DNA of 64,000 bases from an uncultured Ruminococcus sp. (lineage in GTDB: Bacteria > Bacillota > Clostridia > Oscillospirales > Ruminococcaceae), in contig CACWPL010000003.1 in NCBI GenBank assembly GCA_902762785.1, forward strand, positions 1-64,000, in the 5' to 3' direction. This document shows positions 6,636 through 11,885 of this stretch, piece after piece. The notes under the pieces are model-generated. The model worked only from the letters and a program-made list of their open reading frames with translations. It had not been told where the DNA came from and ran no database searches. A program made the translations under genes and the position numbers. How positions within the stretch are numbered: position 1 is the first letter of the stretch; each line of letters begins with the position of its first letter.

Positions 6636-6681
6636 ATTGCGGGAGCCGGATTTGAACCGACGACCTTCGGGTTATGAGCCC
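6636..6681. repeat. Left attachment repeat (tRNA-fMet 3' remnant)
   Basis: 46 bp identical to 11840-11885. It corresponds to the tRNA-fMet gene from the anticodon loop to one base beyond its 3' end. Here it is not followed by the 5' half of the tRNA, so it is a displaced copy made by site-specific integration. A frequently mis-annotated ORF reading REPDLNRRPSGYE crosses it. Confidence 0.92.
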
Positions 6682-6797
6682 CACCAAAAAGCGATTTTTT
6701 CGTTTTCTCTCGTTTCGTGTCGTTGCGAAAATTGTCGATATATAGGCATATTCTCGCCGTCTCGTTTCGTATCATTTCGAAAACATACGTTTCATTT

Positions 6798-6858
6798 GTG
6801 CCCTAAAAGTGCCCTTCGGTGCCCTAAAAGTGCCCTCGCGGTGCCCTAAATGTGCCCT
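6798..6858. repeat. Integrase arm-type sites, left end
   Basis: Three tandem copies of GTGCCCTAAAAGTGCCCT start at 6798, 6819 and 6841 (the last has one change). Each contains two GTGCCCT boxes 11 bp apart, about one helical turn. The same 18-mer recurs at 11760-11777 at the other end, which is expected for arm-binding sites of a tyrosine integrase. Confidence 0.8.
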
Positions 6859-6861
6859 CGA

Positions 6862-6908
6862 AAAACGCGAACTGGAGGCCCCTTGCAGAGCCTCCAGATC
6901 GCGTTTTA
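6862..6908 (-). terminator. Terminator of the leftward satellite operon
   Basis: Long interrupted stem AAAACGCGA-CTGGAGGC / GCCTCCAG-TCGCGTTTT. On the minus strand it ends in a T-run. It lies about 75 bp beyond the stop codon of the last leftward gene. Confidence 0.8.
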
Positions 6909-6981
6909 AGACACCGTTCAATTTCAATGGCTAAGTTTCACAGGTAACACCGCAAAACGCGCACAGCGACCGCTAGGGGCT

Positions 6982-7635
6982 TTATTCGCTGTCTCCGTCG
7001 AGTGCCGCCTTCAATGCTGAAATGTAGCCGTCGTTGAGCTTCCCGCTACGGTCCGCCCAACACCCGCAGAGCCTCGCTAGCATGTGATCGTCGTTATCTG
7101 CTAGCAAAAAATCCGGCGACCAAAACGCGTCCTGCGGCTTGAAGATCAGCAGCTCGAGCGAGCGGCGAGCCGCGCTCAGATGCTCGCGCGCCGTCTGCGC
7201 CGACAGCGTTTTCGGCGCGGGCAACTGCAAAGGCATCGCACGCTCGCCAGCTACTTCGCGCAGCAGCTCGAGCGCCGCAGGACAGTCGGCGCACAGCCGC
7301 GCGCACTGCTGTAACTCGCCCGCAGAAACGTTCTTTCGCATCGAGAGGAGCTGCACCGCCCGCAACTGTTCATCCGACGGCGCGACGAGCGGTGCGTCGT
7401 CAAGTCGGCGTTCGATTGTGTTCAAAATCGGCTCGAGACGCTCCGACGCCCTCGCCCGGCACCTCGCAAGCGCCTCGTCGCGCTCTGCCTCCGCCTCAGC
7501 CGTCCGACGGCGGTAGAATTCGCTCCCGGCCATCTCGGCCAGTTCCTCGACCGTGTGCTCGTATTCGTTTGCAATGGCCTGCTCGGCGCGCAAAAAATCG
7601 CGCGTCGCGTCGCAAATTTTCTTTGTCAAAACCAA
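6982..7635 (-). CDS. Unknown 217-aa satellite protein
   Basis: No ATG is available near the 5' end. AAGGAGG at 7645-7650 is 9 nt from TTG at 7633-7635, which is taken as the start (a TTG at 7639-7641 is only 3 nt away). The N-terminal 80 residues form a charged, Ala/Glu/Arg-rich coiled coil. A second region follows with a C-x3-C-x2-C group near 110-120 (CARLCADC) and a C-terminal helical part. Proteins of this shape commonly follow a TerS-like HTH gene in small Firmicutes elements, but I cannot name a function. It is the last gene of the leftward operon, before a strong terminator. Confidence 0.72.
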   Translation of the reverse strand: MVLTKKICDATRDFLRAEQAIANEYEHTVEELAEMAGSEFYRRRTAEAEAERDEALARCRARASERLEPILNTIERRLDDAPLVAPSDEQLRAVQLLSMRKNVSAGELQQCARLCADCPAALELLREVAGERAMPLQLPAPKTLSAQTAREHLSAARRSLELLIFKPQDAFWSPDFLLADNDDHMLARLCGCWADRSGKLNDGYISALKAALDGDSE

Positions 7636-7686
7636 AATCAAAAACCTCCTTCAAATAAGAAATTTCCGGAAATATTCGGAAAAACC

Positions 7687-8100
7687 CTAGTCCTCGTCGC
7701 CGTCGTCTTCCCAAATATCTTCGAGCCGCAGATCGTCGAAATCGAAATCGCGACCAACAGCGGCGTGCGCCTTTTCGAGCTGCCGCAAGCGGCATCCGTA
7801 AACGTCGGCGGCGTGCAGCGTTTCCCGGCACGCTTGCAGCCGAACCGCAGGCGGCGCGCCCTCGTCCAGCATGAGCGTTTGGAGCGTCAGCGACGCGATC
7901 CGTGCGCCCTGCTGGAGCTGTCCGGCTGCATCGCGCAGAGCGTCCGCGCGCATGCTCTCGAGCCGCGTGCGAAACGCGGTGTTTTGTAGCCGTGAATAAA
8001 TCGTACGTGGGCTGATTTTGAGAGCCGTCGCGGCGCCCGTCGCAGTTCGATGTGTGAGCAGCGCCGCGAGGATCTCGTCGTCGTTAATTTTTCCCATCAT
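7687..8100 (-). CDS. HTH protein resembling a small terminase subunit
   Basis: 137 residues; ATG at 8098-8100 (a second ATG follows) behind GGAGCTGATA. Residues 8-45 form a homeodomain-like helix-turn-helix (EILAALLTHRTATGAATALK, then ISPRTIYSRLQN) typical of small terminase subunits and related phage DNA-binding proteins. A helical middle and an acidic tail (DDGDED) follow. In phage satellites a TerS homologue redirects packaging. No large terminase is present here, so the idea depends on a helper phage. It could instead be a transcriptional regulator. It overlaps the upstream 48-aa gene by 17 nt. Confidence 0.75.
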   Translation of the reverse strand: MMGKINDDEILAALLTHRTATGAATALKISPRTIYSRLQNTAFRTRLESMRADALRDAAGQLQQGARIASLTLQTLMLDEGAPPAVRLQACRETLHAADVYGCRLRQLEKAHAAVGRDFDFDDLRLEDIWEDDGDED

Positions 8101-10238: not shown

Positions 10239-11709
10239 TGTCACCGAACGACGCGACAAAAACGGCGCACTCGTTTCCTTTAGGATCCGCGTTTCGCGCG
10301 GCACCGACGCTCACGGCAGACGTCTCAAACCTTTTGAGGCGACCTTCAAAGCCGACCCGAACCGAACCGAACGGCAGAACCAAAAAGCCGCCGCCACTTT
10401 TGCCGCTGATTTCGAGCGTCGTTGCCGCGAGGGGCTCGTCGCCGACCATCAACAGAAATTCGAGGTCTATTCCAGCTATTGGATCGAGCTCCAGACATCC
10501 AGCGGAAACGTCCGGCCACGAACTGCCGAACGCTACCGCGCATTGCTTGTCCGCATCAATGCCGCGATCGGGCACATCAAGCTCGGCGACATCCGGCCGC
10601 AGCACCTCAACGAGCTCTATCAGTCTCTCGCGCGAGAGGGCGAGCGGCACGGCGGCGAGAAGGCCGTCATCCTGCCCGCTGTCAACCTCAAAGACCTTTA
10701 CCGCGCACACGGGTTTCACAATGCAGAGGCATTTTGCACAGCGGCTGGCTGTTCGGTCGTAACGATCCGCGCCGCAACTCGCGGCGAACGCATCCGCGCT
10801 GAAAACGCCCAAAAGATCGCAACGGCGCTCGAGATGCCCGTCACGCGGCTTTTTAAGCTCGAGACCGACACACGCCCTCTATCCGCAAAAACCATCAAAC
10901 ATCATCACGCGCTGATCTCGAGCATCCTCGAGAGCGCTGTGCATGAGGGGCTCATCGTTCAAAATCCTGCCGCTCGTGCCGTCCCTCCAAAAGTCCGGCG
11001 TGCCAACGTCCAGTATTTCGAGCCGCAGGACGTCGCCCGCATCCTGCAAGCCCTCGAGCGCGAGCCGTTGAAATGGCGCGCGATCCTGCACCTTCTGATC
11101 GTCACGGGTTGCCGACGCGGTGAGGTGCTCGGTCTCAAATGGAGCGACCTTGACACGACCTTCAAACGCCTCCACGTTCAACGCGCCCTTTACTACACGG
11201 CACAGATGGGCGTTTTTGTCAGCGAGCTGAAAACGGACAGCTCCGACCGCCTGATCGCTCTCCCGCCGCAAACGATGGAGCTGCTCGACCGCTACCGCCG
11301 CGAATACTATGAGCCCCTCCGTCAAGCGGCGGGCGACCTATGGGAGGGCGACGATGGCTTTATCTTCGTTTCGGACTGCGACCACATCGGACGCCCCATG
11401 CATCCCGACAGCGCCACAGCCTTTTGCGTTGCGTTTTCAAAGAGGCACGGCCTCCCGCACATCCACCCGCACGCGTTTCGGCATACCGCCGCGAGCATCC
11501 TCATCCATGCCGGATTGGATCCTGTTTCCGTCGCTGGACAGCTCGGCCATGCAAGCGCCGCGACGACCGAAAACATTTACGCCCATATGATCGCAGACGC
11601 CAAAACTCGCGCCGCAAATGCAATGGGCGAGATCCTGCTCACCTCCCGCCGCTCCCTGCATGAGACAGACGACAGCACGGAGGCCGACAAAAACCGCAAA
11701 CACGGATAA
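10231..11709 (+). CDS. Tyrosine integrase with embedded HTH
   Basis: 492 residues from ATG 10231-10233, which follows GAGAGGAGG; upstream extensions read into the repressor gene and are rejected. Architecture: N-terminal arm-binding domain (1-55), core-binding domain interrupted by an XRE-like HTH at about 151-210 (NLKDLYRAHG ... SVVTIRAATRGERIRAENAQ ... ALEMPVTRLF), then the catalytic domain. Catalytic residues visible are R295 (TGCRRGE), K334, H414-x-x-R417, H440 (LGH) and the nucleophile Y450 (ENIYAH). It catalyses integration and excision at tRNA-fMet. It is transcribed toward the attachment site and ends 130 bp from it. The HTH insertion is unusual for the family at large. Confidence 0.95.
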   Translation: MANVTERRDKNGALVSFRIRVSRGTDAHGRRLKPFEATFKADPNRTERQNQKAAATFAADFERRCREGLVADHQQKFEVYSSYWIELQTSSGNVRPRTAERYRALLVRINAAIGHIKLGDIRPQHLNELYQSLAREGERHGGEKAVILPAVNLKDLYRAHGFHNAEAFCTAAGCSVVTIRAATRGERIRAENAQKIATALEMPVTRLFKLETDTRPLSAKTIKHHHALISSILESAVHEGLIVQNPAARAVPPKVRRANVQYFEPQDVARILQALEREPLKWRAILHLLIVTGCRRGEVLGLKWSDLDTTFKRLHVQRALYYTAQMGVFVSELKTDSSDRLIALPPQTMELLDRYRREYYEPLRQAAGDLWEGDDGFIFVSDCDHIGRPMHPDSATAFCVAFSKRHGLPHIHPHAFRHTAASILIHAGLDPVSVAGQLGHASAATTENIYAHMIADAKTRAANAMGEILLTSRRSLHETDDSTEADKNRKHG

Positions 11710-11716
11710 CGAAAAA

Positions 11717-11752
11717 AGAGCGGGGGCTCGGTGCCCTCGCTCTCGTTTTTTT
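11717..11752 (+). terminator. Integrase terminator
   Basis: AGAGCGGGGG / CCCTCGCTCT stem followed by GTTTTTTT, immediately after the integrase stop. One GTGCCCT box lies within the hairpin. Confidence 0.8.
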
Positions 11753-11759
11753 GCGGTCG

Positions 11760-11777
11760 GTGCCCTAAAAGTGCCCT
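11760..11777. repeat. Integrase arm-type site, right end
   Basis: GTGCCCTAAAAGTGCCCT, identical to the copies at 6798 and 6819. An extra single GTGCCCT lies at 11731. Confidence 0.8.
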
Positions 11778-11793
11778 CGACCCCTAAAAAGGC

Positions 11794-11829
11794 AAAAAAA
11801 TAACCATTCCAGATTTCTCTGAAATGGCT
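11794..11829 (-). terminator. Terminator of the tRNA-fMet transcript
   Basis: On the minus strand AGCCATTTCAGA pairs with TCTGGAATGGTT around a GAAA loop and is followed by ATTTTTTT. It lies 12 nt beyond the tRNA 3' end and inside the integrated element, so the element supplies a new terminator for the host tRNA. Confidence 0.85.
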
Positions 11830-11839
11830 ATTTTGCGTG

Positions 11840-11885
11840 ATTGCGGGAGCCGGATTTGAACCGACGACCTTCGGGTTATGAGCCC
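11840..11885. repeat. Right attachment repeat within tRNA-fMet
   Basis: 46-bp perfect copy of 6636-6681 running from the anticodon loop through the 3' end of the tRNA plus one base. Confidence 0.92.

Follow-up and report, generated by a model that had tools for sequence, protein, structure and literature searches.

A 5.2-kb element in the initiator tRNA gene of an uncultured Ruminococcus sp. is probably a minimal phage satellite

Phage satellites are reported to measure 7-20 kb (PMC13376191). The phage-inducible chromosomal islands (PICIs) of Gram-positive bacteria, exemplified by SaPIs and StCIs (PMC6092414, PMC13376191), combine attachment (att) repeats, divergent regulation and their own replication gene (rep) with iterons, and carry a terminase small subunit (TerS) gene without structural genes. 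The Streptococcus satellite phages of the Javan series (PMC6813308) possess an integrase facing an operon, in some of them a replisome organizer, and no virion operon, whilst the phage-inducible chromosomal minimalist islands (PICMI) of Vibrionaceae (PMC10803314) have a minimal gene set with an AlpA/HTH_17 gene and an integrase. Here, we describe an element that resembles each of these systems in the respects listed, its iterons being candidates for a replication origin. It lies in a 64,000-nucleotide stretch of DNA (contig CACWPL010000003.1, positions 1 to 64,000; hereafter, the window) from the assembly of an uncultured Ruminococcus sp., where it occupies positions 6636-11885 as an integrative element of 5250 bp in the gene of the initiator tRNA (tRNA-fMet), with nine closely packed genes.

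At a probability of roughly 0.8, we read this element as a minimal satellite of phages, built like the PICIs of Gram-positive bacteria. An initial annotation, made from the sequence alone, had proposed a satellite-like element with a PICI-type layout. The layout is supported by the anatomy of the element, and the satellite-like character gains strength from a sister element elsewhere in this genome, from relatives in other Clostridia, and from homology and gene neighborhood shared with Streptococcus satellite phages. In particular, the satellite reading is much stronger because one gene pair, coding for a TerS-like helix-turn-helix (HTH) protein and a protein of no annotated function (orf217), is found in both the clostridial relatives and the Streptococcus satellite phages. 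A compact PICI-like satellite is thus well supported by the comparison of predicted genes. The features of the element and its target are as follows (window coordinates).

6636-6681, no strand: left att repeat copy, 46 bp (3' part of tRNA-fMet)
6798-6857, plus: six GTGCCC repeats with a spacing of 10-11 bp, candidate integrase arm sites of the left end
6862-6907: inverted repeat 3' of orf217, possible terminator
6982-7635, minus: orf217, predicted all-helical, functionally unannotated, found in satellites and satellite-like elements
7687-8097, minus: TerS-like HTH protein (profile match and relatives)
8084-8230, minus: orf48, small protein kept in the sister element
8246-8872, minus: replisome organizer, Phage_rep_org_N (PF09681, 1.1e-14; phrog_5968, 5.9e-26)
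8421-8499: six GTTAC iterons within rep, starting at 8421, 8430, 8463, 8474, 8484 and 8495, candidate replication origin
8869-9162, minus: orf97 (phrog_2113, which has no assigned function; weak HTH_11 match)
9155-9352, minus: Xis/AlpA-like HTH_17 protein (TIGR01764, 31.6 bits; cut-off, 28.8)
9324-9509, minus: orf61, small basic protein of 61 aa (homologues in loci L056, E 0.005, and L092, 1.5e-6)
9535-9563, plus: promoter-like site for repressor and integrase, TTGACA-17-TACAAT (11/12), with a TGACA-N5-TGTCA palindrome
9642-10238, plus: XRE-type repressor (HTH_31, 1.5e-7), without a peptidase domain match
10231-11709, plus: tyrosine integrase (PF00589, 4.7e-25)
11717-11743, plus: terminator-like hairpin 3' of the integrase gene (the number of hairpins in the element is not above chance)
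11731-11776, plus: three GTGCCC repeats, candidate integrase arm sites of the right end
11840-11885, no strand: right att repeat copy, 46 bp, within the intact tRNA gene
11841-11914, minus: tRNA-Met(CAT), intact, the integration target

The direct repeats at the two ends are perfect over 46 bp, and the next longest match between both ends is only 23 bp. As read from its sequence, the tRNA at 11841-11914 shows a C1:A72 mismatch and GGG/CCC in the anticodon stem, which we take to be the initiator signature that marks it as tRNA-fMet. The repeat comparison and the intact tRNA-Met(CAT) gene bear out the perfect repeats in an initiator tRNA gene that had been proposed, and an own integrase with direct repeats at a specific att site, a PICI feature, is present. 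The GTGCCC motif occurs nine times in the element, compared to 1.1 expected in Markov-resampled sequence.

The leftward operon on the minus strand (orf61-xis-orf97-rep-orf48-TerS-like-orf217) faces the repressor and integrase genes on the plus strand, so that, by gene strands, the divergence of regulator/integrase and xis-rep operons seen in PICIs is also present. The integrase, the Xis-like HTH protein, the XRE repressor and the replisome organizer of the initial annotation were each named by family searches, and its TerS-like HTH protein, weak on the window protein alone, became firm through relatives. No match to relaxase, large terminase (TerL), portal, capsid, tail or lysis families was obtained for the nine proteins against Pfam, PHROGs and NCBIfam at E values up to 1, in line with the predicted lack of virion, lysis, large-terminase and relaxase genes. 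A complete prophage was rejected on the absence of TerL, portal and capsid from the matches of the nine element proteins, and an integrative mobilisable element on the absence of a relaxase match. No known interference gene was recognised among the same family matches. As regards defence cargo, the PADLOC matches correspond to the HTH of Xis (mad1, 4.4e-5) and of the repressor (capH, 2.5e-6 and weaker), and were not taken as defence genes.

The absence of a relaxase family from these matches also bears on the view that the element is an integrative replicon or mobilisable element unconnected with phages, which would excise and replicate on its own and move by conjugation via an unrecognised oriT or by chance transduction, its TerS-like protein being a plain regulator. 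The poor score of the window TerS-like protein alone would suit this view, and so would the left flank of 42% GC with its coupling-protein-like ATPase, which may mark a conjugative-type element as a neighbor. Nevertheless, we regard it as unlikely, in view of the missing relaxase and of the relatives described below.

Regarding the regulatory signals, back-to-back promoters had been claimed. The rightward site (9535-9563) was recovered, whereas no leftward promoter-like site was found between the two operons of the window element; in the sister element, promoter-like sites occur in both directions between the operons. Over the whole window element, three promoter-like sites compared to 1.5 in shuffles is not above chance. 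The repressor indeed has no peptidase domain match, as had been stated, which is at most suggestive of the induction without the SOS response that had been derived from it. The GTTAC iterons are located in the 3' half of rep, where CGTTAC occurs five times in 140 bp, compared to 0.5 expected in Markov-resampled sequence.

A search with the rep protein revealed the sister element, which measures 5.0 kb, lies on another contig of the same assembly (L035 8346-13372), and is bounded by perfect 49-bp direct repeats in tRNA-Thr(CGT). The rep/TerS-like/orf217 module is common to both elements, with 79% DNA identity from before orf217 to the rep start. This identity is mosaic, reaching 95-98% in part of orf217 and 91-93% in part of rep, and ranging from 55 to 90% elsewhere. 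Whereas the repressors of the two sisters are unrelated (36 residues, E 0.29), their integrases show a distant relationship (32-35% identity over two segments). The iterons within rep have identical spacing (9, 33, 11, 10, 11) in both elements, a constancy that may be due in part to their position in a well-conserved coding stretch, and GTGCCC repeats about 11 bp apart are found at both ends of both elements. In the six genes common to the sisters, dN/dS is 0.24-0.56, as estimated by a simple Nei-Gojobori count with our own script. Taken together, the two elements look like members of a family that is still alive and would exchange its integration and immunity modules around a fixed core. That two sisters in one genome combine a common core with distinct modules for integration and immunity hints at the way in which satellites avoid each other.

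The sister also bears on the possibility that the window element is a decayed prophage, in which the integrase, repressor, rep and TerS genes remained once the late genes had been lost. In favor of such decay are the phage-type character of its recognisable genes and its small size. However, nine intact, closely packed genes fill the element, two copies with clean repeats and different integration modules occupy different tRNA genes of one genome, and the dN/dS values indicate purifying selection. We hold this explanation to be very improbable. Just outside the sister, at L035 8229-8307, lies a degenerate tRNA-Thr-like remnant, of which 21 bp match the att repeat and which reads as the trace of an earlier insertion.

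With profiles of orf217, a family sample of 396 genomes yielded 5 with relatives and an order sample of 394 yielded 6, the own genome being counted in both. Six other genomes of the same order have the pair of TerS-like gene and orf217 (G227, G183, G417, G080, G460 and G537), and in all six the orf217 homologue is preceded by the TerS-like gene, with both in the same orientation. The locus of G080 consists of two contig-edge pieces, and a seventh match, G682, which is the weakest of the order sample (E 4.6e-4, inside a 1060-aa frame), was left out of the loci read. As judged by reading, the relatives vary, with a tyrosine or a serine recombinase and with a RepA-like protein or a primase replacing the organizer. 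Bounded examples are an element of 6.1 kb with a 24-bp repeat at tRNA-Ser (L054), one of 9.5 kb with a 45-bp repeat at tRNA-Met (L092), and a stretch of 12.9 kb (L071 1078-13996) with a 20-bp repeat beside a guaA-like gene.

The L092 element is collinear with the window element across orf61 (1.5e-6), orf97 (2e-9), the integrase (42% identity) and orf217 (2e-12), and its TerS-like gene shares 48% identity with the L052 one (1.5e-27). A large terminase gene (phrog_2, 9.9e-47) and one further gene separate this TerS-like gene from orf217. L071 additionally encodes a protein resembling tail tape measures (phrog_58, 4e-44). Neither portal nor capsid genes were recognised in the elements of the relatives, the library searches having covered part of their genes. 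The recurrence in other genera of a similar gene set, with neither portal nor capsid recognised, argues further against a decayed prophage, though one of these elements has a TerL gene and one the tape-measure-like gene. The called frame of the L092 integrase (8322-9704) ends at 9014, whereas similarity to the window integrase reaches 9704, so this gene is interrupted in the assembly.

The TerS-like relatives match terminase small subunit families (L042, 1.1e-7; L056, 4.7e-7; L052, 4e-6; L071, 1.9e-5). These matches, together with the position of one of the relatives directly before a TerL gene, speak against an element unconnected with phages. The same holds for the L054 orf217 homologue, the sole relative tried against the plasmid collection, which matched nothing there. 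The DNA of the window element matched 158 records of that collection; among the 20 matches listed, 2% of the query is covered, at both ends, corresponding to the tRNA repeat. A faecal record, MT837364.1, is like the L071/L042 kind and has its TerS-like gene joined to tail-like genes.

In the phage collection, the L071 orf217 homologue matched eight records, all eight of which are Streptococcus satellite phages (E 9e-3 to 1). The orf217 homologue of one of them, Javan375, matched 25 records of the collection; all 25 are named satellites and none is a named ordinary phage, which argues once more against a decayed prophage. In Javan198, Javan375 and Javan99, the three that were read, a TerS-like HTH gene directly follows the orf217-like gene, so that the two are neighbors in the opposite order. 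With the TerS-like proteins of these three, that of L052 gave direct matches (27-34% identity; six-locus search, E 2e-8 to 1e-11). In profile comparisons, seven clostridial orf217 proteins matched three streptococcal ones with 82.5% probability (E 9.8e-6), and the TerS-like profiles of the two groups matched with 99.2% probability (E 6e-20). The negative controls for the orf217 comparison were two coiled-coil-like proteins (0.3% and 1.4%), and are weak because they are single sequences. At these probabilities, orf209 of L070 (0.3%) and a 277-aa protein of MT837364.1 (1.4%) were rejected as orf217 relatives. The recurrence of the gene pair in named phage satellites is a further point against a mobilisable element unconnected with phages.

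The Javan satellites differ from the window element in several respects. They measure 8.6-13.6 kb, with helicase-loader and further genes, compared to 5.2 kb; their pair order is opposite, their identity is 25-28% (matches of the L071 orf217 homologue), and their hosts are streptococci rather than Clostridia. Javan198 in addition has a minor-head-protein-like gene. Among the matches of the window rep, those that span most of the protein are satellites, whereas ordinary phages match with better E values.

A further orf217-like gene was found in MT838598.1, a 5080-bp record from human faecal samples that is filed as a phage, unclassified, and was detected weakly by the L070 homologue (E 0.07). 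The gene (27% identity to that of L092) follows a fragment that matches a terminase small subunit family (9.7e-4), and the record also has a helicase-primase. Full membership of the family was rejected: the TerS proteins of the elements gave no match at E 0.05, and orf61 matches elsewhere than first read. We therefore claim only the orf217-like gene, to which sequence similarity lends some weight. A virus-particle study of Mexican children (PMC8361208) could be the source of this record; no accession links them.

The orf217 protein was modelled as all-helical (AlphaFold2, mean pLDDT 77, alignment of two sequences). The model had no match in the PDB at E <= 0.001, and the two best matches in a viral library (E about 0.01), one from a Siphoviridae sp. 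and one unnamed, have no assigned function. Wherever a locus read here covers both regions, orf217 stands beside the TerS-like gene. Since it is accompanied by this gene, a role in packaging or assembly is suggested, and since it is present both with and without TerL, it is probably not simply a terminase part. Most likely, orf217 would act in the same packaging step as the TerS-like protein, either together with TerS or in the assembly of helper heads. The orf217 family may be specific to satellites; it may mark them and be an aid where only an integrase and a repressor are recognisable.

These predicted functions suggest the following life cycle for a satellite of this kind. In the silent state, the XRE repressor would hold the leftward operon off. 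A helper would relieve repression, and Xis and Int would excise a 5.2-kb circle via the 46-bp repeats. The replisome organizer would initiate replication at the GTTAC iterons that its gene contains. The satellite DNA would be marked for the large terminase of the helper by the TerS-like protein, with orf217 assisting packaging. The DNA would then leave in helper particles and integrate into the tRNA-fMet of a new host. Given the size of 5.2 kb, packaging would require either very small heads or the formation of concatemers.

The window element and its sister (5.2 and 5.0 kb) lie below the satellite range given above (PMC13376191) and, in a further difference from PICIs, no gene for capsid size or interference is recognisable in the window element, unless orf217 has such a role. 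Elements of about 5 kb with their own rep and a TerS-like gene would show how few components suffice to take over a packaging line. PICMI provide a precedent for concatemer packaging by small satellites (PMC10803314), and the word 'terminase' is absent from the text of that paper. Their model, however, requires the fis regulator and a primase of the DUF3987/DUF5906 kind, compared to a replisome organizer and tRNA-fMet in the window element. Membership in PICMI was rejected: rep is a Phage_rep_org_N protein, no DUF3987/DUF5906 primase is present, and the site is tRNA-fMet, not next to fis. The only DUF3987 match in the element, that of orf61 (E 0.4), is at chance level. Among the titles and abstract openings listed in the literature searches, none describes this gene pair or 5-kb satellites in these Clostridia; the large survey of satellites on which SatelliteFinder is based and a survey of tyrosine recombinases (PMC8138268) lay outside their scope.

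The proposal that the helper could be a co-resident phage was not upheld. A PF03354 search of the own assembly, which is 92% complete, found no large terminase, and a phrog_2 search of the own genome gave one strong and one weak match. The weak match overlaps a gene read as a PhoH-like ATPase, and the sole strong one lies in a head-gene cassette rather than a complete prophage (G000 contig C1 137947-144408, L067/L068). This cassette comprises TerL, portal, capsid and three smaller genes, with serA-like and DUF3794-like genes as neighbors by reading; no integrase or tail genes were recognised in the stretch read. A homologue of its capsid is present in 34 of 38 genus genomes, with 64-83% identity in the 33 other than the own, and a stop lies within 5 of the 34 capsid matches. 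Because one TGA, upstream of a 449-aa open frame, falls within the profile match of the terminase, this gene may or may not be whole. The cassette looks like a resident, vertically kept head operon and a candidate for a gene-transfer-agent-like (GTA-like) system.

In gut Ruminococcaceae and Oscillospiraceae, fragments of 4.6-8.9 kb are reported to be packaged in a GTA-like manner, and for Faecalibacterium the particles have been demonstrated (PMC12946183). These reports and the cassette raise the possibility that the window element is instead a satellite of a GTA-like head cassette kept across the genus, its 5-kb circle fitting a small domesticated capsid. The TerL-portal-capsid cassette of the own genome, the spread of its capsid, the fragment sizes and the lack of any other strong TerL match in the own genome agree with this. 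On the other hand, the TGA within the terminase match and the stops in capsids suggest that some copies may be decayed, and no tail genes were recognised. In addition, most of the genus has the cassette, whereas a TerS-like match of the type seen in satellites was found in 1 of 38 genus genomes, namely the own, and related satellites occur in families beyond the cassette survey. We thus consider such a helper improbable. Equally doubtful is the fuller proposal that both 5-kb elements are satellites of GTA-like particles, with a size set by the cassette capsid and with the TerS-like protein and orf217 turning a non-selective particle into a selective carrier. The likeness to the FpGTA-like operons of gut Clostridia (PMC12946183) is that of a possible helper only, through the cassette kept by the host genus, and the window element carries none of their genes. 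If the cassette were the helper, this would be, to our knowledge, the first satellite of a gene transfer agent.

Several results weigh against a phage satellite as the preferred reading. The two large-terminase profile searches found no complete co-resident prophage. Taken alone, the window TerS-like protein gives a weak match to phrog_2538 (E 0.077), and its model resembles the phage protein phBC6A51 (2ao9) among the best matches, weakly (E 0.28). The best viral structural neighbor of the orf217 model is labelled Siphoviridae sp. (E 9e-3), and this match, if real, would speak against strict satellite exclusivity of the orf217 family. The window orf217 and the L054 homologue find no match in the phage collection, and the streptococcal link is for this reason made via other relatives and profiles. 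The underlying single matches are individually weak, with a best E of 9e-3 for L071 and only 46 residues (E 0.006-0.02) for L092. The orf217-like protein of MT838598.1 matches its own record only. Among viral contigs, the window orf217, TerS-like protein and integrase and the orf217 proteins of L070, L053 and L052 found no relative, and the rep query found one distant locus (26% match). In a phylum sample, a ten-row orf217 profile found only the own genome (1/398), and therefore the family is rare or the profile weak. Among genome contigs, the window orf217 has no match and the L054 homologue matches its own record only.

The integration site is a further such point, as no syntenic empty tRNA-fMet site was found in the genus loci. 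The initial annotation had looked to relatives for a clean empty site; in G024, whose flanking gene is the most similar one among the relatives (73%), the contig ends at the tRNA. The survey, which used three integrase queries and flank lengths computed from locus lengths, covered 22 loci with a complete tRNA-fMet match, 15 of them with at least 1 kb downstream. An integrase of the window type lies beside tRNA-fMet in 4 of these 15 (G000, G018, G028 and G010), and none is present within the downstream flank, at least 1 kb each, of the other 11. A third, partial att copy of tRNA-fMet (43 nt) is located at L034 3748-3790 on contig C38 of the own genome, at the end of a gene read as a serine recombinase, and is possibly the trace of another element at tRNA-fMet.

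In the integrase of the window element, residues ~148-213 resemble an XRE-type HTH inserted within the core-binding domain. The match is weak in the window copy (0.021) and clearer for HTH_3 in L039 (8.7e-8) and L040 (4.7e-7); an HTH_26 match was obtained in L052 (0.0012), and the insert was recognised by reading in L092. The L036 integrase has no HTH match, and the integrase of the sister element is without the insert.

The left flank of the element (window 1-6635) has 42% GC, compared to 64% to the right, and is foreign-looking. It encodes the coupling-protein-like ATPase (3117-6161; PF10412, 2.2e-6), and is probably another mobile element beside the satellite. A 628-aa protein without a match is encoded at 1008-2894 of the same flank. 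To the right of the element, two direct repeats of ~200 bp with 92% identity are present at window 15174-15686.

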